A program made the position numbers and the translations under genes. From Chitinophaga oryzae (GTDB lineage Bacteria > Bacteroidota > Bacteroidia > Chitinophagales > Chitinophagaceae): 64,000 bases of DNA. A model generated the notes under the pieces. The model was not told where the DNA came from. It made no database searches and worked only from the letters and a program-made list of their open reading frames with translations. This document shows positions 25,765 through 52,836 of this stretch, one piece after another; positions within the stretch are counted from its first letter, which is position 1; each line of letters starts with the position of its first letter. The stretch covers positions 2,604,001 through 2,668,000 of the forward strand of contig NZ_CP051204.2 of the NCBI RefSeq assembly GCF_012516375.2. The letters run 5' to 3'.

Positions 25765-27060
25765 TTATCGCATTAACCAGTTTTTGAACGCATCATAATC
25801 TGCCGGCAGCAGCGTAGCGTCTTTTTCTTTACCGTAGAGCGACATGACGCGGGGCGGCGTGTGAATGGCATCGCGTACGCTTTTGGGGGCGGTGTCTTCA
25901 AACTTCACGGGGTGGGCGGTTTCCAGGAATACGCCGGTCAGATCGGGCGCTTCGGCGAGGAACTGCTGCAGTCCGAGATAGCCTACCGCTCCGTGCGGGT
26001 CCAGCATATAGTGATGTTCTTTCCATACCTGTTCCATCGTGCGCGCGGTGTCCTTGTCCGTATAGGCGTAGGCGGTAAATTTCTCTTTCAGTGCCGGCAG
26101 GCTGTTGCCGAATAACTGTAACACCCGTACGAAGTTGCTGGGGTCGGCCACGTCCATGGCGTTGGACAGGGTAGGCACCGCTTTGCCCGGTTCGTATTTG
26201 CCGTTTTGCATGAAGCGAGGCACGGTGTCGTTGACATTGGTGGCGGCCACAAAATGTGCTACGGGCAAGCCAATGGCAGCAGCCATCATACCGGCGCAGA
26301 TGTTGCCGAAATTGCCGCTGGGCACGGCAAACACCAGCTTTGGATGAGCGGCCTTCATCTGTTTGTAGGCGAGGAAATAATAAAACATCTGCGGCAGCCA
26401 GCGGGCCACGTTGATGGAATTGGCGGAGGTAAGCTGCCGGCGTGATTGTATCTCGGCGTCGAGGAAGGCGCTTTTTACCATACGCTGACAGTCGTCGAAC
26501 GTGCCCTGTACCTCCAGCGCGCGGATATTGCCGCCGAGGGTGGTCAGCTGTTTTTCCTGTAAGGTGCTCACCTTTTGGGAAGGGTAGAGAATCACGACGT
26601 CTACGCCGGGAACGTTATAAAAGCCGCTGGCCACGGCGCCGCCGGTATCGCCGGAGGTGGCCACCAGCACGGTTACCGGCCGGTCGCTGTTGCGCCGGAA
26701 ATAACCGAGGCATCCGGCCATGAAACGGGCGCCCACGTCTTTAAAGGCGAGGGTGGGGCCGTGGAAGAGCTCCAGCGCATAGGTGTGACCGGTGACTTTC
26801 TGTATCGGAAAAGGGAAATGCAGCGTATCGTTTACGATCTTTTGCAAAGCGGCTGCCGGGATCTCATCACCGATAAAGGGACGGATCACCTCATAGCCGA
26901 TCTCCTGGTCTGAATAGTTGTGCAGGTGTGCGATAAAATCAGGGTCGAGGGACGGGATCTGCTCCGGGAAGTACAGGCCCCTGTCCGGCGCGATACCTTG
27001 TATGACGGCGGTTTCAAAAGATGTTTTATGCTGTGGATCTTGTAAACTGTAGTACTGCAT
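25765..27060 (-). CDS. thrC: Threonine synthase
   Basis: A 431-residue PLP enzyme that converts O-phosphohomoserine to threonine. The PLP lysine lies in HGPTLAFKDVGARF, and the phosphate loop is in VATSGDTGGAVASG. I use the ATG at 27060 (MQYYSLQDPQH), the family's normal start; the longer frame upstream overlaps thrB. It follows thrB by 19 nt and is the third gene of a thrABC operon. Confidence 0.95.
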   Translation of the reverse strand: MQYYSLQDPQHKTSFETAVIQGIAPDRGLYFPEQIPSLDPDFIAHLHNYSDQEIGYEVIRPFIGDEIPAAALQKIVNDTLHFPFPIQKVTGHTYALELFHGPTLAFKDVGARFMAGCLGYFRRNSDRPVTVLVATSGDTGGAVASGFYNVPGVDVVILYPSQKVSTLQEKQLTTLGGNIRALEVQGTFDDCQRMVKSAFLDAEIQSRRQLTSANSINVARWLPQMFYYFLAYKQMKAAHPKLVFAVPSGNFGNICAGMMAAAIGLPVAHFVAATNVNDTVPRFMQNGKYEPGKAVPTLSNAMDVADPSNFVRVLQLFGNSLPALKEKFTAYAYTDKDTARTMEQVWKEHHYMLDPHGAVGYLGLQQFLAEAPDLTGVFLETAHPVKFEDTAPKSVRDAIHTPPRVMSLYGKEKDATLLPADYDAFKNWLMR

Positions 27061-27079
27061 GCGGATGGATTGGTAAAAA

Positions 27080-28006
27080 TTAGTCAATGATTTTAACGCC
27101 TTCGGTGTTAACGCGGGACACGTATATTTTATAGTCCACTCCCAGTGGCGCATATACGCTGTTCATGGTTTCAGCGACTTTGCGGGCGTTCGTTTCGCCT
27201 TTACTGAGCATGAATACAGACGGGCCGGAGCCGGAGATGCCGCCGCCGAGAGCGCCGGCCTCTTTGCATCTGAGCTTCAGTTCCTGGAAGGCGGGGATGA
27301 GGATGGAACGTATCGGTTCCACGATCACGTCTTCCAGTGAGCGGCTGATCAGGTCATAGTCCTCCTGGTAGAGCGCGGCCACCATGGCGCCTACATTGCC
27401 CCACTGGCGGATGGCGTCGGTCATCAGCACTTTCTGTTTCAGTATCTCGCGGGCGTCGGATGTTTTGACTTCTATCTGCGGATGGATAACGGTCACCCAC
27501 AGTTCTGCCGGCGTATGCAGCGTGGTGATGTCCAGCGGGCGATAGCTGCGCACCAGCGTGAAGCCTCCGAGGATGGCGGGCGCCACGTTGTCGGCATGTG
27601 CCGACCCGCAGGCCAGTCTTTCTCCTTCCATGGCGAAGCGGACCAGTTGTTTTTTGGTGAAGGGTTCGCCCAGCAGGTGGTTGACCGCTACCACGGCGCC
27701 GGCACTGCTGGCGGCGCTGGAACCGATGCCGCTGCCGGGGTGGATATGTTTGAAGATCTCTATCTCGATGCCGGTATCGGGCTGGTCGTATTTCTGCAAC
27801 AGCGCCTGCACCGCCACGCTGGCCACGTTCCTGGCGGGGTCGGTGGGCAGGTCGGCGCCGTGGATGGCTTTGATACGGATGCCGGGCTGGCTGGTGCGGC
27901 GTACGACCATTTCATCGCCGGGCGCGTTCATGGCGAGGCCGATAACGTCAAAACCACAGGCTACGTTGGCAACAGTGCCGGGGGCGAATACTTTTATGCT
28001 GTCCAT
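27080..28006 (-). CDS. thrB: Homoserine kinase
   Basis: A 308-residue GHMP-family kinase that phosphorylates L-homoserine. The ATP loop HPGSGIGSSAASSAGAVV and the C-terminal glycine-rich GGGISGSGPSVFML are visible. It lies between thrA (76 nt upstream) and thrC (19 nt downstream) on the same strand. Confidence 0.95.
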   Translation of the reverse strand: MDSIKVFAPGTVANVACGFDVIGLAMNAPGDEMVVRRTSQPGIRIKAIHGADLPTDPARNVASVAVQALLQKYDQPDTGIEIEIFKHIHPGSGIGSSAASSAGAVVAVNHLLGEPFTKKQLVRFAMEGERLACGSAHADNVAPAILGGFTLVRSYRPLDITTLHTPAELWVTVIHPQIEVKTSDAREILKQKVLMTDAIRQWGNVGAMVAALYQEDYDLISRSLEDVIVEPIRSILIPAFQELKLRCKEAGALGGGISGSGPSVFMLSKGETNARKVAETMNSVYAPLGVDYKIYVSRVNTEGVKIID

Positions 28007-28082: not shown

Positions 28083-30527
28083 TCATAAACGGGCTGACCG
28101 GATAATGTCGGCGAAAATGCCGGAGGCGGTCACGTCTGCGCCGGCTCCGGCTCCTTTTACGATCAGCGGTTGCTCCTGGTACCTGTTGGTGGTATAAAGC
28201 ACGATGTTGTCTTTGCCTTCCAGCTGGTAGAAAGGATGGTCCGGCGCTACGCACTGCAGGCCTACAGAGGCCTGGCCATCTGCGTAGCGGGCCACGAACT
28301 TCAGTCTCTTGCCGGCGCTGGCCGCCTCCTGGTACAGCTGCTGGAAATGGCCGGCATGTTCATCCAGCGTTTCGTAGAAATCGGCCACGGAGGGTGCATT
28401 CAGACAGGCTTCCGGCAGGAAGGAGTGGTTGGTGATGTCGTTCATTTCGATAGCGGCGCCGCTTTCACGGGCCAGGATCAGGATTTTACGCATCACGTCT
28501 TTGCCGCTGAGGTCAATACGCGGGTCCGGTTCGGTGTAACCTTCGTCCTGCGCGGCCTGGACCACGCTGCGGAAACTGTTGCCGTTCACAAAATGATTGA
28601 ACACAAAGTTCAGGCTGCCGGAAAGTACCGCCTCGATGCTCTGTACCCTGTCGCCGCTCCTGACAAGGTCATTGAGGGTATTGATGACCGGCAGTCCGGC
28701 GCCTACATTGGTTTCAAAAAGGAAAGAGGCGTTGTATTTACGGGCCAGGTCTTTTAATTGTTTGTAGTAGGCATAGTCAGATGAACAGGCGATTTTATTA
28801 CAGGTCACCACCGAAATGCCATGCTGCAGGAACTCATGGTAAACGGCGGCCACTTCGCTGCTGGCGGTATTGTCCACGAATACGCTGTTGCGCAGGTTTA
28901 AGGATTTGATGTTGTCCACGAAAGCCGGCAGGTCCATCGCGTCGCCCTGCGCCAGTTGGTTTTTCCAGTCGTGCAGACCGATGCCGTAGGGGCTGAACAG
29001 GGCGTTTTTACTGTTGGCCAGGCCGGCTACCCTTATCTGCAGTCCCAGTTCTTCCTGCAGGTAGGTTTGCTGTTGCTGCAGCTGTTCCAGCAGTTTGCCG
29101 CCTACGTTGCCTACGCCGGCAATGAACAGGTTGACCTGTTTCAGCGGCGCTTCAAAAAAGGTTTCGTGTATCAGGTTGAGCGCCTTTTTCAGGTCGGCTT
29201 TATTAATCACGGCGGAAATGTTTTTCTCCGTAGAGCCTTGTGCGATGGCCCTCACATTGACGCCGTTGCGGCCGAGGGTGCCGAACAGTTTGCCGCTGGT
29301 GCCGTGGTGGTTTTTCATTTTGTCGCCCACAACAGCCACAATGCAGAGGTCTTTCTCCACCTGCAGGGGGTCGATGCGTTTCTCCTGTATCTCCTGTGCA
29401 AACTCACTGTCGACCGCCGTTTTGGCTTTCAGCATGTCTGCTTCGTGGATGCCGACGGTGATAGAGTGTTCCGAAGAGCTCTGGGTGATGAAAATAACGT
29501 TGATGCGTTCCTGTAAGAGCGATTCAAACAGTCTTTTGGAGAAGCCGGGGATGCCTACCATGCCGCTTCCTTCGAGAGTGAGCAGGGATATATGCTGGAT
29601 GCCGGAGATGCCGGTCACCGGGAAAGCGCGTTCCACGCTGTCCTGTATGAGGGTGCCGTAATCATCCGGGGCAAAAGTGTTTTTGATCCAGATGGGGATG
29701 CGTTTATCCATGACCGGTTGTATGGTAGGTGGATAAATGACTTTGGCGCCGAAGTGGGACAGTTCCATCGCTTCTTCATAAGAGATGTGGGCGATGGGAA
29801 TGGCCTGGGACACCAGGCGGGGATCGGCGGTCATCATGCCGCTTACGTCCGTCCATATATCGAGCAGCTCCGCGTGTACGGCGGCGGCGATGATGGCGGC
29901 AGTGTAGTCCGAGCCGCCACGCCCGAGGGTGGTGGTGTCGCCGTTGGGAGCGGCCGCCACAAAGCCGGGCAGCACCACGTAATCCGCCGGATGCTGTGCG
30001 AAATATTCTGTAATAAGGTGGTTGGTGGCCTGAAAGTTAACAGTCGCATGGCCGTAGTTATTGTCGGTCACAATCAGTTCCCGGCTGTCTTTGCAGGTGG
30101 CGAAGAAACCCAGTTGTTTGAGCTTTTCCGCAACGATAACGCAGGAGATCAGTTCACCATAGCTCATGATTTTATCGAGCGAGCGGGCGCTCAGTTCTCC
30201 TACCTGAAAGATGCCGTCACACAGGTTTTCGAGGGCGTTGAGTTTTTTCTTCAGCTGGCTGATCATGCTGCTTTGCGCAGTGATAGGGAATAATTCGCGG
30301 ATAGTGTCCAGGTGTCTGTTTTCTATTTCCTGTAGTACGGACTTGTATTGTTCCTGGCCTTCGCCGGCCAGTTGACCGCAACGTATAAGCTTGTCCGTAG
30401 TGCCGCCGAGCGCTGATACAATGATGGCATAACGGCCGGCTGGTTTATTGTTTTTGAGGATTTGACAAACCTGTTCTATGGCTTTGGCGCTTCCGACAGA
30501 AGTGCCGCCAAACTTAAGTACTTGCAT
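28083..30527 (-). CDS. thrA: Bifunctional aspartate kinase/homoserine dehydrogenase
   Basis: An 814-residue two-domain enzyme that performs the first and third steps from aspartate to threonine. The N-terminal kinase (about 1-300) starts MQVLKFGGTSVGSA and has TTTLGRGGSDYTAA. ACT regulatory domains (about 310-450) follow. The homoserine dehydrogenase has its NAD(P) site in FIAGVGNVGGKLLEQL near 465 and catalytic-region sequence such as DLSGKDVMRKILILARE. It heads thrABC. Upstream lies a leader with a run of Thr and Ile codons, so expression is probably tuned by charged tRNA levels; feedback by threonine through the ACT domains is typical of the family. Confidence 0.96.
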   Translation of the reverse strand: MQVLKFGGTSVGSAKAIEQVCQILKNNKPAGRYAIIVSALGGTTDKLIRCGQLAGEGQEQYKSVLQEIENRHLDTIRELFPITAQSSMISQLKKKLNALENLCDGIFQVGELSARSLDKIMSYGELISCVIVAEKLKQLGFFATCKDSRELIVTDNNYGHATVNFQATNHLITEYFAQHPADYVVLPGFVAAAPNGDTTTLGRGGSDYTAAIIAAAVHAELLDIWTDVSGMMTADPRLVSQAIPIAHISYEEAMELSHFGAKVIYPPTIQPVMDKRIPIWIKNTFAPDDYGTLIQDSVERAFPVTGISGIQHISLLTLEGSGMVGIPGFSKRLFESLLQERINVIFITQSSSEHSITVGIHEADMLKAKTAVDSEFAQEIQEKRIDPLQVEKDLCIVAVVGDKMKNHHGTSGKLFGTLGRNGVNVRAIAQGSTEKNISAVINKADLKKALNLIHETFFEAPLKQVNLFIAGVGNVGGKLLEQLQQQQTYLQEELGLQIRVAGLANSKNALFSPYGIGLHDWKNQLAQGDAMDLPAFVDNIKSLNLRNSVFVDNTASSEVAAVYHEFLQHGISVVTCNKIACSSDYAYYKQLKDLARKYNASFLFETNVGAGLPVINTLNDLVRSGDRVQSIEAVLSGSLNFVFNHFVNGNSFRSVVQAAQDEGYTEPDPRIDLSGKDVMRKILILARESGAAIEMNDITNHSFLPEACLNAPSVADFYETLDEHAGHFQQLYQEAASAGKRLKFVARYADGQASVGLQCVAPDHPFYQLEGKDNIVLYTTNRYQEQPLIVKGAGAGADVTASGIFADIIRSARL

Positions 30528-30607
30528 AGTGAATAATGTTTATACGAATGGATGTTCCGGGTTCCCGGTGGTTACCACGGCTGTGGTCGCTGGATGATAT
30601 GTGTATA

Positions 30608-30718
30608 CTAACCCCGCAGTGGGGTTGTAATGGTGGTGGTCGTAATAATAGTGCTCAGGCATTTCCCCTGGAAGGAGGAAGTGGAGGAGGAGAGATGATA
30701 TGTAGCTACTGCTTGCAC
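30608..30718 (-). CDS. Probable thr operon leader peptide (thrL-like)
   Basis: On the minus strand, a 36-codon frame from GTG (30718) to TAG (30608-30610) contains ACT ATT ATT ACG ACC ACC, then ACC ATT ACA ACC: seven Thr and three Ile codons in ten positions. It ends about 80 nt before thrA. Escherichia coli thrL has the same type of run. The stop overlaps a hairpin, AACCCC-actg-CGGGGTT (30607-30624 region). An upstream GGGG can pair with the same CCCC, and the ACC-rich run can pair with a later GTGGT, so alternative structures exist. No T run follows, so the exact attenuation mechanism is unclear. The start codon is uncertain; an ATG in another frame (30662) gives a His/Tyr-rich peptide. Confidence 0.6.
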   Translation of the reverse strand: MQAVATYHLSSSTSSFQGKCLSTIITTTTITTPLRG

Positions 30719-31158
30719 TATTGTTTTATGACGATTGTGTAACAAAAGTCTGGATTTCTGCCGGTAAATAAAAGCCTGAGGTGGATATTTTCAAATAATT
30801 TAATAAATGTTGTTTGTTTTTGAAAATGTCTAACAATCATTGTTTTTATTAAAATTATGATTGGTTTACTGCGATTTTCTTTGATGTGGATGACGGTGTT
30901 GCAGCATTCTGGTTTTAATAAAAAACTATTTTTAAAGACATTTTCATGACAAAAAGATGTCAAAAAGCGGCAAAACAAGGCAAATGGATTGTCATGAAAC
31001 TAATGACAAATAACGGGCTCCCGGAGTGTTATTACCAATGGGAACATAGCAGCCTGGATAACATCATGGCACGGGCCGTATGCCCCGGGAGGTATCCCGG
31101 GAGGATGGATGATGTTGCTTCCGGGAGGATGAAATACTAACGCCGGGATGAATACGGA
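30719..31158. other. Intergenic region upstream of the thr leader
   Basis: No convincing gene. The part next to the leader is AT-rich and has a weak minus-strand -7 candidate, GACTTTTG (30750-30743). The distal part has three copies of CCGGGAGG (31085, 31097 and 31121). A 64-codon plus-strand frame here is probably not coding. Confidence 0.4.
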
Positions 31159-31818
31159 TCAATAATAGATTGTCTCCTTGCAACCTGGGATCTTCAGGCT
31201 GTTCTCCCCGAATTTCAGTTGGTCTAACAGGGGAAGGGTGGTAAACGTATGTTTGTATTGCCGGCGGCTTTTGGCCGGTTGCGGGTTATCCTCTCCGTCA
31301 CAACCGCCATCAGGCTCGAACGCAACGACCACATCTCCCGTGGAAAAGTTGACTTCGGAGATCTGCGCACCATAGCAGTTGGTGTTCAGCGAGGTTTTTG
31401 AACCGATCAGGTACCAGTCATTTTGCTGGAAACGGAAAATATGAGTGTACAATGTCAGGTTCCGGCCGCCGGGAAATTCTTCCTGTTTGAGTATAATACA
31501 ATTGCGTCTGATCTTCAGGTCTTGCAGCCTGGTGTATTGGGGCATGGAATGGGCAGGCAGAACGGACAACACTTTTTTACGCCAGAGGCCCGGTTTTCCG
31601 TCCGTATACCGGCAGATATAAAGAATCCTCTCAAAGTCATCATTCTTATCAGGTTCGGTGTCGTAAACCAATACCAGCTCGTCTTTTCCGTCTTTGTCAA
31701 GATCGCCGGCGGCTTCGGCTATTTTTTGATAGCCGGCCGGAATGAACGGCGGCCGGGTGTCTGCAGTCTGTGCATGAACAGCGATGGGTAACAAAATCAA
31801 TAGCAGCAGATATTTCAT
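31159..31818 (-). CDS. Secreted hypothetical protein with FG-GAP/EF-hand-like motif
   Basis: A 219-residue protein with a signal peptide (about 1-16, ending VHAQ). Near residue 38 it has AGDLDKDGKDELVLV, a calcium-binding loop as in FG-GAP/VCBS repeats; the rest is beta-rich (LTLYTHIFRFQQNDWYLIG) without a family I recognise. It would be periplasmic or exported. It is a single minus-strand gene between the thr operon and the divergent hmgA region. A TATCTTAG box lies about 25 nt upstream of the ATG. Confidence 0.65.
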   Translation of the reverse strand: MKYLLLLILLPIAVHAQTADTRPPFIPAGYQKIAEAAGDLDKDGKDELVLVYDTEPDKNDDFERILYICRYTDGKPGLWRKKVLSVLPAHSMPQYTRLQDLKIRRNCIILKQEEFPGGRNLTLYTHIFRFQQNDWYLIGSKTSLNTNCYGAQISEVNFSTGDVVVAFEPDGGCDGEDNPQPAKSRRQYKHTFTTLPLLDQLKFGENSLKIPGCKETIYY

Positions 31819-49180: not shown

Positions 49181-51854
49181 TAATATCCCATATGAGGTGA
49201 AGGAAGGCAAAAACCTGCTGGAAGCATGTTTGTCGCTCGGCCTCAACCTGCCGTACTTCTGCTGGCACCCGGCCCTCGGATCGGTAGGGGCCTGCCGCCA
49301 GTGCGCTGTCAAAATCTTTAAAGATGAACAGGATACCCGTGGCAGGCTGATGATGGCCTGCATGGAGCCGGTGAGAGAGGGTATGCGTTTATCCGTCAAC
49401 GATAGTGACGCGGTCGCTTTCCGGGGTCATGTGATCGGCTGGCTCATGACCAACCATCCGCATGACTGCGCCGTATGCGACGAAGGTGGCTCCTGTCACC
49501 TGCAGGATATGACGGTAATGACCGGCCACGTATACCGTGACTACCATTTCTCCAAAAGGACGTACCGCAATCAGCAACTGGGACCTTTTATCAACCACGA
49601 AATGAACCGCTGCATCCAGTGCTATCGCTGCGTACGGTTCTATAAGGACTTTGCCGGCGGTAAAGACCTTGATGTTTTTGCTGCGCATAACCACGTTTAT
49701 TTTGGCCGTCAGCAGGACGGTACGCTGGAAAGTGAGTTCAGCGGCAACCTGGTGGAAGTATGCCCTACCGGCGTATTCACCGATAAAACACTCAAACAGC
49801 ATTATACCCGCAAGTGGGACCTGACCACGGCGCCATCCATCTGCCAGGGATGCGGCCTTGGTTGCAATATCATTGCGGGCGAACGTTACGGCTCCCTGCG
49901 GCAGATCACCAACCGCTACAACGGGGCGGTGAACGGTTATTTCCTTTGTGACCGTGGCCGTTATGGTTATGAGTTCGTCAACAGTAAAGACCGTATCCGT
50001 GAGCCGCTGGTGGTTCATTCACCGGACGACAGGGCCAACGGGCTGCCGGTGCTGCAACATGTGCGGAACCGAATGAAGCCGGGTAAGGTGATCGGCATCG
50101 GTTCCCCGCGGGCCTCTGTGGAATCCAACTATGTGCTGAAGGAACTGGTAGGAGCGGACAATTTTTATATCGGTATCGGGGAGACGGAACATGAGCTGGT
50201 CCGCCTGATGCTGGAACTGCTGCAGGAAGGCCCGGTACGGTCAGCCTCCATGCAGGAAGCCGCTGCCGCTGACGCGGTGGTGATCCTGGGCGAAGACCTC
50301 ACCAATACGGCCCCTATGCTGGCGCTCTCTGTACGCCAGGCCATCCGGCGTATGCCGGTGGACCATGCCATCAGCAATATCCATATGCCTGCCTGGCAGG
50401 ATGCGGCCGTGCGGGAGGCGGTACAGGACGACAAAGGGCCGCTCTTTATCCTGAACGTGGTGGAAACCAAACTGGACGAACTGGCTACCGGCGCCTATCA
50501 TACCGCGCCTGATAATATTGCGCGTATAGCCTTTGCTGTTAGTCATCTGTTGGACGGTACCTTACCGGAAGTAACCGGCATGTCGGAAGAAGGGAGACAG
50601 GCGGCTGCTACCATCGCTGCTGCGCTCAGGGGGGCGAAGCGGCCGCTGGTAATAGCCGGCTATGGGGGCGGTAGCGAACAGGTGATCAGGGCTGCGGCCA
50701 ACCTGGCCTGGGCCCTGAAACAGCAAGGCGCTGACGCCATGCTCTCTTTTACCGTACCGGAATGCAACAGCATGGGCCTCGAAATGCTGGGCGGCCATCG
50801 CCTGGAATCAGCGGTAGATGCAGTACTCAACGGTAACGCAGAGACAGTGCTGATACTGGAAAATGACCTGTACCGCCGGCTGGACCTGCATACGGCCAAC
50901 CAGTTCTTCAACCACTGCAGAGAAGTGATCGTGCTCGATCATCTGCATAATCCTACTACCGAAAGAGCCAATATCGTACTGCCCGCCGGTACTTTTGCAG
51001 AGGCGGACGGCACGCTGGTCAACAATGAAGGCCGTGCACAGCGCTTCCTGCAGGTGTTTAACCCGCAGGGCGCCATACAGGAAAGCTGGCGCTGGCTGTT
51101 GCAGCTGGCGGACGTGTGCGGGCATACCTTCCTTCGCTCCCTGCTGCACTATGACGATCTGCTTAGGGCCATCGCAGCCCGATATCCGGTATTTTCCGGC
51201 ATCGATACCATCACGCCGCCGGCAGATTTCCGCATCGCCGGTCAGAAGATACCCAGGGAGCCGCACCGTTACAGCGGGCGTACCGCCATGCTGGCCAATG
51301 TGAACGTCAGCGAACCCAAACCCGCGGAAGATGCTGACACCGCCCTGTCTTTCACCATGGAAGGATACCGGGGCGAACCACCTTCCTCCGTGATCCCCTT
51401 CTTCTGGGCGCCGGGCTGGAACTCGGTGCAGTCGGTCAACAAATACCAGGTAGAAACAGGCGGCCCCCTGCACGGCGGCAACCCCGGCAAACGCCTGCTG
51501 GAACCTAACGTAAACGGTCAAACGAAATTTTATACCAACATACCCGATCCTTTCATCCCGGTAGGGGGCCATCTGCTGCTGGTGCCGCTCTACCACATTT
51601 TCGGATCGGAAGAACTGAGCATTCATACGCCGGGCATCGCCCAGCGGATGCCTGCTCCCTATATTATGCTGCACAGCGAAGACGCGCATCGTTTTCAGGT
51701 GGCGGCAGGACATCTGCTTTATTTTATGGATAACGGACACCAGTACGCGCTGCCGGTCGTGATCAACGACACCCTGCAGAAAGGAGCCGCCGGCATCCCG
51801 GTAGGGCTGCCGCATATGCAGGTGGCGGAAGCGCCGCAGCTGGTTAAAATTTAA
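49161..51854 (+). CDS. nuoG: NADH-quinone oxidoreductase subunit G
   Basis: An 897-residue iron-sulfur subunit, close in length to Escherichia coli NuoG. Ligand regions are YFCWHPALGSVGACRQC (2Fe-2S), CDEGGSCHLQDM, RCIQCYRCVRF with VCPTGVF (4Fe-4S clusters), and SICQGCGLGCNI at the start of the molybdopterin-oxidoreductase-like domain (extra cluster N7 type). The C-terminal domain is degenerate for molybdopterin binding, as is usual. Confidence 0.94.
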   Translation: MPIINIDNIPYEVKEGKNLLEACLSLGLNLPYFCWHPALGSVGACRQCAVKIFKDEQDTRGRLMMACMEPVREGMRLSVNDSDAVAFRGHVIGWLMTNHPHDCAVCDEGGSCHLQDMTVMTGHVYRDYHFSKRTYRNQQLGPFINHEMNRCIQCYRCVRFYKDFAGGKDLDVFAAHNHVYFGRQQDGTLESEFSGNLVEVCPTGVFTDKTLKQHYTRKWDLTTAPSICQGCGLGCNIIAGERYGSLRQITNRYNGAVNGYFLCDRGRYGYEFVNSKDRIREPLVVHSPDDRANGLPVLQHVRNRMKPGKVIGIGSPRASVESNYVLKELVGADNFYIGIGETEHELVRLMLELLQEGPVRSASMQEAAAADAVVILGEDLTNTAPMLALSVRQAIRRMPVDHAISNIHMPAWQDAAVREAVQDDKGPLFILNVVETKLDELATGAYHTAPDNIARIAFAVSHLLDGTLPEVTGMSEEGRQAAATIAAALRGAKRPLVIAGYGGGSEQVIRAAANLAWALKQQGADAMLSFTVPECNSMGLEMLGGHRLESAVDAVLNGNAETVLILENDLYRRLDLHTANQFFNHCREVIVLDHLHNPTTERANIVLPAGTFAEADGTLVNNEGRAQRFLQVFNPQGAIQESWRWLLQLADVCGHTFLRSLLHYDDLLRAIAARYPVFSGIDTITPPADFRIAGQKIPREPHRYSGRTAMLANVNVSEPKPAEDADTALSFTMEGYRGEPPSSVIPFFWAPGWNSVQSVNKYQVETGGPLHGGNPGKRLLEPNVNGQTKFYTNIPDPFIPVGGHLLLVPLYHIFGSEELSIHTPGIAQRMPAPYIMLHSEDAHRFQVAAGHLLYFMDNGHQYALPVVINDTLQKGAAGIPVGLPHMQVAEAPQLVKI

Positions 51855-51858
51855 AGCT

Positions 51859-52812
51859 ATGATAAACGCCTGGTGGATTATCGGAGGAGTACTCTTCGTA
51901 CTGTTAAATACAGCCGCAGGACTGATATGGCTGGAACGCAGGATGCTGGCCCTGTGGCAGGACCGCTACGGCCCTAACAGGGCGGGGCCCTTCGGCCTGT
52001 TTATCGTATTGGCAGACACGCTGAAGCTGTTCTTTAAAGAAGACTGGATCCCTCCGTTTGCCGATAAAGTGGTGTTTGTATTTGCGCCGGCCGTAGTGGT
52101 GGCCAGTGTATTGATGAGTTTTGTGATCGTGCCGTTTGCCCCCAATATTGTGGTGGCGGACCTTAATATCGGCATTCTCTTTTTCCTCGCCATGTCGTCG
52201 CTAGGCGTGTACAGCATCGTGCTGGGCGGCTGGGCTTCCAACAACAAATACGCCCTGCTGGGCGCCATGCGTGGCGCTTCGCAGATGATCAGCTATGAAG
52301 TGTTCATGGGACTGGCGCTCATGGGCGTAGTGGTGCTCAGCGGCAGTTTTAACCTGCAGCAGATCGTGGAGGCGCAGCGTACGGTATGGTTCATCGTCCC
52401 GCAACTGCTGGGGTTCCTCATTTTTATGGTAGCGGGTATTGCCGAAACACACCGGCTGCCGTTTGATATTCCCGAAGCGGAAAGTGAGCTGGTGGCGGGC
52501 TTTCACTCAGAATATTCCGGGATGAAATTCGGGATGTTTTTCATCGGTGAATACCTGGGCGTGACACTTATCTCCGCCATGGTGGTAACGCTCTACTTCG
52601 GAGGCTGGCTCGGCCCCGCCTTCCTGCCGCCAGTGGTGTGGTTTGCCATTAAAACGTTTGCTTTCATCTCCCTGTTCATCCTGCTGCGGGCATCCATGCC
52701 ACGGCCGCGGTATGACCAGCTGATGGAATACGGATGGAAAGTGTTGTTTCCGTTATCGTTGCTCAACCTGTGGGTGACGGCAGCGATCAAGCTCTGGTTA
52801 ATATCCAAATAA
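51859..52812 (+). CDS. nuoH: NADH-quinone oxidoreductase subunit H
   Basis: A 317-residue membrane subunit forming part of the quinone chamber, with about eight helices. The signature loop ETHRLPFDIPEAESELVAGF and EYSGMKFGMFF are present. It starts 4 nt after nuoG. Confidence 0.96.
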   Translation: MINAWWIIGGVLFVLLNTAAGLIWLERRMLALWQDRYGPNRAGPFGLFIVLADTLKLFFKEDWIPPFADKVVFVFAPAVVVASVLMSFVIVPFAPNIVVADLNIGILFFLAMSSLGVYSIVLGGWASNNKYALLGAMRGASQMISYEVFMGLALMGVVVLSGSFNLQQIVEAQRTVWFIVPQLLGFLIFMVAGIAETHRLPFDIPEAESELVAGFHSEYSGMKFGMFFIGEYLGVTLISAMVVTLYFGGWLGPAFLPPVVWFAIKTFAFISLFILLRASMPRPRYDQLMEYGWKVLFPLSLLNLWVTAAIKLWLISK

Positions 52813-52836
52813 TTAAATAACTAAATATCAAAATAT

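Follow-up and report, generated by a model that had tools for sequence, protein, structure and literature searches.

A predicted Thr/Ile leader-peptide element of thrABC in Chitinophaga, with a conserved hairpin module and no recognised intrinsic terminator

How could a leader peptide rich in threonine and isoleucine codons control the thrABC operon of Chitinophaga oryzae when no intrinsic terminator is recognised behind it? We analysed this locus within a window of 64 kb, the whole stretch of DNA under study, from a genome of 8.36 Mb in a single contig. All coordinates refer to the window, and all features of the locus lie on its reverse strand. Pfam searches showed the order thrA, thrB, thrC downstream of the leader. 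The thrA gene (28083-30527) encodes a fused aspartokinase/homoserine dehydrogenase (AA_kinase and Homoserine_dh), thrB (27080-28006) a GHMP-type kinase with GHMP kinase domains, named homoserine kinase by gene order, and thrC (25765-27153) threonine synthase (Thr_synth_N and PALP). The listed thrC frame opens inside thrB (overlap 27080-27153); Thr_synth_N begins at its residue 33, so the true thrC start probably lies downstream, near that residue. A 219-aa ORF upstream of the leader (31159-31818) had no Pfam match at E 0.001. The closest named relatives of ThrA were nearly all from Chitinophaga.

The original prediction had described a frame with seven Thr and three Ile codons, on the same strand as thrABC and ending in TAG about 80 nt before thrA, and the sequence and the Pfam assignments confirmed it. 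The ten successive codons at 30652-30623 (ACT ATT ATT ACG ACC ACC ACC ATT ACA ACC) encode T I I T T T T I T T and are followed directly by CCA CTG CGG GGT TAG, the TAG (30610-30608) lying 80 nt upstream of the thrA ATG at 30527. A search of all six frames of the window for Thr/Ile runs of six or more codons returned this run as the sole example. When the 400 nt upstream were shuffled with dinucleotides preserved, none of 5000 shuffles contained a run of ten, the longest being eight.

The start codon, for which GTG at 30718 had been suggested, was assessed in 84 sequences, five of them from other genera and the rest from 78 genomes of the genus, one of which contributed two copies. In all 76 that carry ATAGTG (eight lack it), the GTG of this motif is in frame with the run, and the resulting ORF measures 84-111 nt, every length a multiple of three. 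The last 99 nt were free of in-frame stops in 83 of the 84, and in one other genus (L079) ATG replaces GTG at the same place. Since the ORF length changes only in threes, GTG at 30718 is supported as the leader start, as far as comparison can show; the leader ORF (30608-30718) would then have 36 codons and the predicted peptide MQAVATYHLSSSTSSFQGKCLSTIITTTTITTPLRG. Two alternatives were rejected. A +1-frame ORF from ATG CCT GAG CAC occurs in some close relatives, is lost in others and ignores the codon-position signal; starts nearer the run (CTG, ATG or ATT before or in it) rest on a codon that is not conserved, with ATG there in a minority only. The codon-position signal in Chitinophaga amounts to entropies of 0.29, 0.67 and 1.27 bits at positions 1, 2 and 3, the third varying most. 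All four Thr codons are in use over the last 16 codons of 83 sequences (ACT 91, ACG 42, ACC 194, ACA 175). Sensing through Thr/Ile codons is thus, from sequence comparison, a nearly certain property of the leader. Upstream of the ORF, GACTTTTG at 30743-30750 is a putative sigma-ABfr-type -7 box, matching five of the six specified bases of TAnnTTTG and conserved by eye in the alignment; from this box we infer a transcription start at about 30735-30740. The TAnnTTTG consensus for Bacteroidota promoters is given in a passage of PMC7366714.

The original prediction had also proposed, as a test, that the region upstream of thrA be aligned among relatives and searched for the Thr/Ile codons and for covarying stems. 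Seventy-nine genomes of the genus were fetched, one of which (G050, with thrA at a contig end) was unreadable. The Thr/Ile run was present in all 78 readable genomes, its frame ending at, inside or at the end of the hairpin P1 described below. Among other genera of the family, a leader was accepted in 5 of 6 loci (L078-L083) and in 56 of 60 (L203-L262), the misses in the larger set being L209 (cut short), L232, L253 and L257. These 60 loci were drawn from 289 matching genomes, all among about 149 listed strong fused-ThrA matches, and the sample leaves out genomes with only a distant aspartokinase. A leader was also accepted in 32 of the 41 named loci L162-L202, a single Chitinophaga among these 32; carriers include Niastella, Segetibacter, Flavitalea, Ferruginibacter, Cnuella, Longitalea and Solitalea, and no leader was accepted in five Blattabacterium, Hymenobacter and three further named MAGs. 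None was accepted in the 23 loci from other families of the order (L084-L105 and L108, the last mostly N), and the leader was absent from two family loci with a fused thrA (L083 and L295). This patchy distribution counts against the reading that we favour below.

From 208 sequences (L107 left out), 171 were kept for counting, 79 from Chitinophaga and 92 from elsewhere, after the exclusion of 12 by name and of 25 with fewer than five Thr/Ile codons in nine. The 79 comprise all 76 from the genus set plus L106, L109 and the named L173; among them, one genome appears twice because it has two thrA copies, and another because a named copy of it was kept as well. Loci L123-L161, which are named Chitinophaga loci and largely repeat genus genomes, were left out. 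One genome (G039:C7) carries two inverted thrA copies about 19 kb apart, at 50376-52817 and 72000-74441 (L010 and L109), whose leader peptides are identical. Two of the 92 are Solitalea sequences. Near-duplicates are present among the 171, and the distinct segments aligned numbered 75 and 90. Shuffles for the hairpin, repeat and terminator counts kept base composition only.

In this comparison both the Thr/Ile run and a hairpin at its end proved to be conserved in relatives, so that the prediction survived its own refuting condition. A hairpin over the end of the leader had been predicted, and it was recovered as P1 (30626-30610), with arms AACCCC (30626-30621) and GGGGTT (30615-30610) and the loop ACTGC, overlapping the last codons and the first base of the stop. 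P1 reached the score in 73 of 79 Chitinophaga sequences and 80 of 92 others, against 2 and 3 in the shuffles. It is nearly invariant within the genus. In the family alignment the top-scoring column pair lies in P1 and shows a compensatory change from C-G to T-A in other genera (C-G 72, T-A 16, T-G 2 of 90). In an alignment of 28 sequences P1 pairs in 98.2% of cells, with compensatory change in one of its six pairs. A spacer of mostly 8-9 nt and one conserved element further on, a second hairpin, P2 (ACCAC-AGCC-GTGGT, 30587-30574), contains the top-scoring column pair of the Chitinophaga alignment (C-G 50, G-C 19 of 75 distinct sequences). The scan behind both results is crude, in that 185 pairs in Chitinophaga and 63 in the others passed its thresholds and its score ignores relatedness. 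Outside Chitinophaga, P2 takes the form GGCN..N'GCY: among 87 sequences searched, its 3' arm was found in 69 of the 75 with GGGC, versus 12 expected, and an inner pair of several types is added in 40 sequences, versus 4.6 expected. GGGC was not found in the remaining 12 of the 87, in several because the search was anchored on an earlier CATAT-like match. A third hairpin, P3 (CCGG-GAAC-CCGG, 30568-30557), was recognised, by eye, in some members of the genus and not in others. Structural z-scores for the module were moderate, at -1.84 (27 of the 79 Chitinophaga sequences) and -2.25 (31 of the 92 others). A C-rich stretch at about 30690-30655, upstream of the run, had a mean z of -1.85 in 27 Chitinophaga sequences and may hint at a further hairpin.

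Between P1 and P2 lies a near-invariant element, R2 (ACATATCATCC, 30602-30592). Its CATAT-like core occurred in 79 of 79 Chitinophaga sequences and in 87 of 92 others, against 7.5 and 11.6 expected from shuffles; both sets had been preselected with a similar CATAT pattern, which cost no Chitinophaga sequence, and because the acceptance filter required a CATAT-like core after the stop, the counts outside the genus are slightly biased. One locus (L232) has the run and P1 yet was excluded, its CATAT-like core being missing. R2 stands mostly at one distance from P1. In Chitinophaga the spacer has 8 nt in 65 of the 79 sequences; elsewhere its usual length is 9 nt, found in 60 of the 79 that were measured out of 92. 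A second copy, R1 (ACATATCATC, 30703-30694), lies inside the leader ORF. Its core CATA(T/C) was found at the fixed offsets of 16 or 18 nt 3' of the GTG in all 74 Chitinophaga sequences with ATAGTG (the other 5 of the 79 lack that motif), against a shuffled expectation of 4.5%. R1 falls into two reading frames, in 55 and 19 sequences, which argues that it is conserved as nucleic acid and not as peptide. A looser R1-like match was present in 73 of the 92 sequences outside the genus, a count made without shuffle control. No conserved cis partner for R1 or R2 was found in the loci searched; the nearest recurrent candidate, the 3' arm of P2, could pair with R2 in many Chitinophaga but not outside the genus, and it was rejected.

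The module also occurs beyond the family. From 28 sequences of other genera we built a covariance model, which gave a single listed match in the genome under study, at 30567-30643 and weak (20 bits, E 4.0). Run with strict filters over 395 genomes of the class, the same model returned at least eight matches, of which the family accounts for five, and families f75 and f43 together for the other three; this tally is a lower bound, as these filters miss even the genome carrying the window. Each of the f75 and f43 matches precedes an aspartokinase-like start, and a similar ORF, P1 and an ACATAT element were recognised there by eye. In a class sample of 40 thrA upstream regions from 57 matching genomes (one, L295, in the family), the same module was recognised by eye in three of four f75 loci, one of four f33 loci and the single f34 locus. 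R2 in other families of the class reads ACATATAATCC or ACATATCATCC.

As the original prediction had stated, the leader has no U-run terminator. No terminator-like site was found in 30400-31100, and a uniform terminator test was passed by only 5 of the 171 upstream regions (2 of 79 Chitinophaga and 3 of 92 others, against 0.0 and 0.2 in shuffles). The alternative pairings that it had proposed for the CCCC and the ACC-rich run fared differently: no conserved mutually exclusive or antiterminator pairing was seen, and the crude column-pair scan pointed to P1 and P2. Because no mutually exclusive structure was found, the effect of a formed P1 is left unexplained. The resemblance to the E. coli thrL logic ends with sensing, since neither a terminator nor, in this crude scan, an antiterminator pairing was found.

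We consider the locus to be a ribosome-mediated leader-peptide control element of thrABC, with an output through Rho or pausing preferred, and put a rough probability of 0.55 on this reading. Leader translation, the selection of Thr/Ile codons, P1, R2 and P2 are supported by the comparison; we infer pausing and the action of Rho. In amino-acid leaders, a ribosome stalls when the cognate tRNA is uncharged. As ribosomes translate the 36 codons of the leader, a shortage of charged Thr- or Ile-tRNA would stall them in the ten-codon run and leave P1 free; with plentiful charged tRNA, they would reach the stop at P1, covering the hairpin, and leave. RNA polymerase may pause around R2, behind P1. Under normal translation the C-rich, G-poor leader RNA would be left bare and Rho would terminate transcription, while a ribosome stalled on the Thr/Ile codons would block Rho and protect the polymerase, so that thrABC would be expressed. 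The lack of an intrinsic terminator, together with the near-fixed order of P1, spacer, R2 and P2 after the stop at a variable distance to thrA, suggests that the element probably acts on transcription elongation. A hairpin with a fixed sequence at a short fixed distance is the layout of hairpin-stabilised pauses, as in the his and trp leaders. Rho, for its part, requires bare, C-rich RNA, and the rho gene is encoded in the same genome. The RNA from 90 to 10 nt before the stop has C 0.36 and G 0.12 in Chitinophaga and C 0.27 and G 0.12 in the others; since Thr codons (ACN) alone make RNA C-rich, this excess of C over G is weak evidence for Rho. Taking the possible outputs separately, elongation control by Rho and/or pausing has close to an even chance. 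It is a serious possibility, which we hold somewhat under even odds, that the element governs how well thrA is translated or how stable its mRNA is, or that some factor binds R1/R2; intrinsic termination is improbable.

One rival account, which we regard as rather unlikely, is that stalling, by refolding or protecting the RNA, raises the translation of thrA or slows the decay of its mRNA and leaves transcription unaffected. Leader ORFs in other systems can act through translation or mRNA stability, and R1 and R2, conserved outside the predicted hairpins, could be cleavage or protein sites. Against this account, the mean unpaired probability of the thrA start (-20 to +10) was the same with P1 free as with a ribosome on the stop, at 0.572 versus 0.575 in the 79 Chitinophaga sequences and 0.590 versus 0.589 in the 92 from other genera. 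Occlusion of the thrA start by P1 was accordingly rejected. The distance from the stop to thrA, moreover, is variable outside the genus, ranging from 63 to 240 nt.

A second account, which is unlikely, has a protein or RNA acting in trans bind R1 and R2 as a pair of sites, with the leader peptide supplying a separate, second input. This would fit the presence in the genus of two conserved copies of one core, which stand in different frames and show a near-fixed geometry, as well as the looser, uncontrolled R1-like matches outside it, the extension of R2 to other families of the class and the failure to find a cis partner in the loci searched. A common operator was rejected: ACATATCRTCC occurs at 13 places in the genome versus 7 for the reversed control, and with so little enrichment the factor would have to be dedicated to a few operons.

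A third account, very unlikely in our view, is classical attenuation as in E. coli thrL, in which P1 or P3 would be an unrecognised intrinsic terminator and a competing pairing the antiterminator. The few upstream regions that pass the terminator test exceed the 0.2 expected, and TTTT stands within 10 nt 3' of P1 in 39 of 79 Chitinophaga sequences and 8 of 84 others. The same genome offers a further argument. Upstream of its hisG, a his leader (L265, G000:C1 near 7203894-7204358, reverse strand) encodes the putative peptide MISNVHIHHHHHSYRTGRLG with the run HIHHHHH, behind which an 11-pair stem with a T-rich tail stands directly before hisG, and it passes the same terminator test; the classical arrangement thus exists in this cell but was not seen for thr. 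In family f61 all six thr loci have a Thr/Ile run, and five of the six a classical terminator. These points are set against the failure of 166 of the 171 upstream regions in the terminator test, against the lack of any terminator-like site at 30400-31100 in the window, and against the finding of six or more T in the 8 nt 3' of P1 in just 1 of 79 Chitinophaga sequences and 1 of 84 others. A terminator at P1 would also act in the wrong direction, since stalling early in the run would keep this hairpin free to form. Two neighbouring observations concern other leaders: by eye, the G+A-rich codons at the ORF end of the f61 leaders look complementary to the terminator arm, and neither of two ilvD-type upstream regions in the genome under study showed a leader. 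Finally, that the run is a low-complexity ACN/ATT tract arisen by chance, or a non-translated repeat with no coding role, has nothing beyond its simple composition in its favour and is refuted by the comparison, the run being unique in the window and its frame and multiple-of-three lengths being kept genus-wide.

The element resembles known systems in part. Like E. coli thrL (Thr_leader, RF00506), it has a Thr/Ile-rich leader ORF upstream of thrABC and a hairpin at the ORF end; unlike it, it lacks a terminator, and the Chitinophaga leader scores only 17.4 bits (E 0.98) against a gathering score of 55. We know of no counterpart of R2 and P2 in E. coli. No Rfam family matched the window at threshold. 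The his leader of the same genome shares the principle of a peptide run of the operon's own amino acid but ends in a strong intrinsic terminator just before hisG. The f61 thr leaders (L290, L291, L294, L298, L303 and L306) likewise place a Thr/Ile run upstream of a fused thrA and differ from Chitinophaga in the terminator that five of the six carry and in showing no R2 by eye. In family f36 (L297, L299 and L305), a Thr/Ile-rich ORF upstream of thrA ends in ACGGGGT or similar, and no R2 was recognised by eye; two of the three, L297 and L299, did not pass the terminator test, and f36 may hold a third form. The tnaC and mgtL leaders are Rho-dependent attenuators that sense free Trp and Mg2+/proline, respectively. 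They share with the Chitinophaga leader an ORF, the lack of an intrinsic terminator and, presumably for Chitinophaga, a decision by ribosome position; the Chitinophaga signal would differ in being charged Thr/Ile-tRNA, and its dependence on Rho is presumed.

Vitreschak and colleagues reportedly predicted amino-acid attenuators in 2004, in work whose abstract is said to mention Bacteroidetes/Chlorobi. Those attenuators are of the same general kind and possibly of the same operon, and some thr leaders of the phylum may already be in print there. Among the literature matches listed, none reported a thr leader in Bacteroidota, and little concerned leader-peptide control of amino-acid operons in that phylum. 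A passage of PMC7366714 describes some long 5' UTRs of Bacteroides thetaiotaomicron that hold short ORFs reminiscent of leader peptides. Bacteroid-trp (RF01692) is listed as cis-regulatory in Bacteroidetes in a table of PMC2864571; it is likewise a candidate cis-regulatory RNA of that group, of the trp operon by its name, but it had no match in the window at the Rfam threshold or in the genome at E <= 1. Leader peptides of this kind are known; what looks new is the module, with its repeated element and no terminator.

We tentatively propose, at less than even odds, a class of switches in Chitinophagaceae, f75, f43, probably Solitalea, f33 and f34, in which ribosome position would read the charging of Thr/Ile-tRNA and a module absent from Rfam would report it, consisting of a stop-codon hairpin, an 8-9 nt spacer, a near-invariant stretch of about 11 bases with a further copy close to the start of the ORF, and another hairpin. 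If this is true, the terminator would be replaced by a polymerase pause that a hairpin stabilises, or by a site for a factor; the geometry of the module would suit either. A thr leader that occurs in most Chitinophagaceae loci examined and lacks a terminator, next to a terminator-bearing his leader in one cell, makes a paired system for studying how a stalled ribosome is read out without intrinsic termination in this phylum, and for asking what the repeated CATAT element binds.
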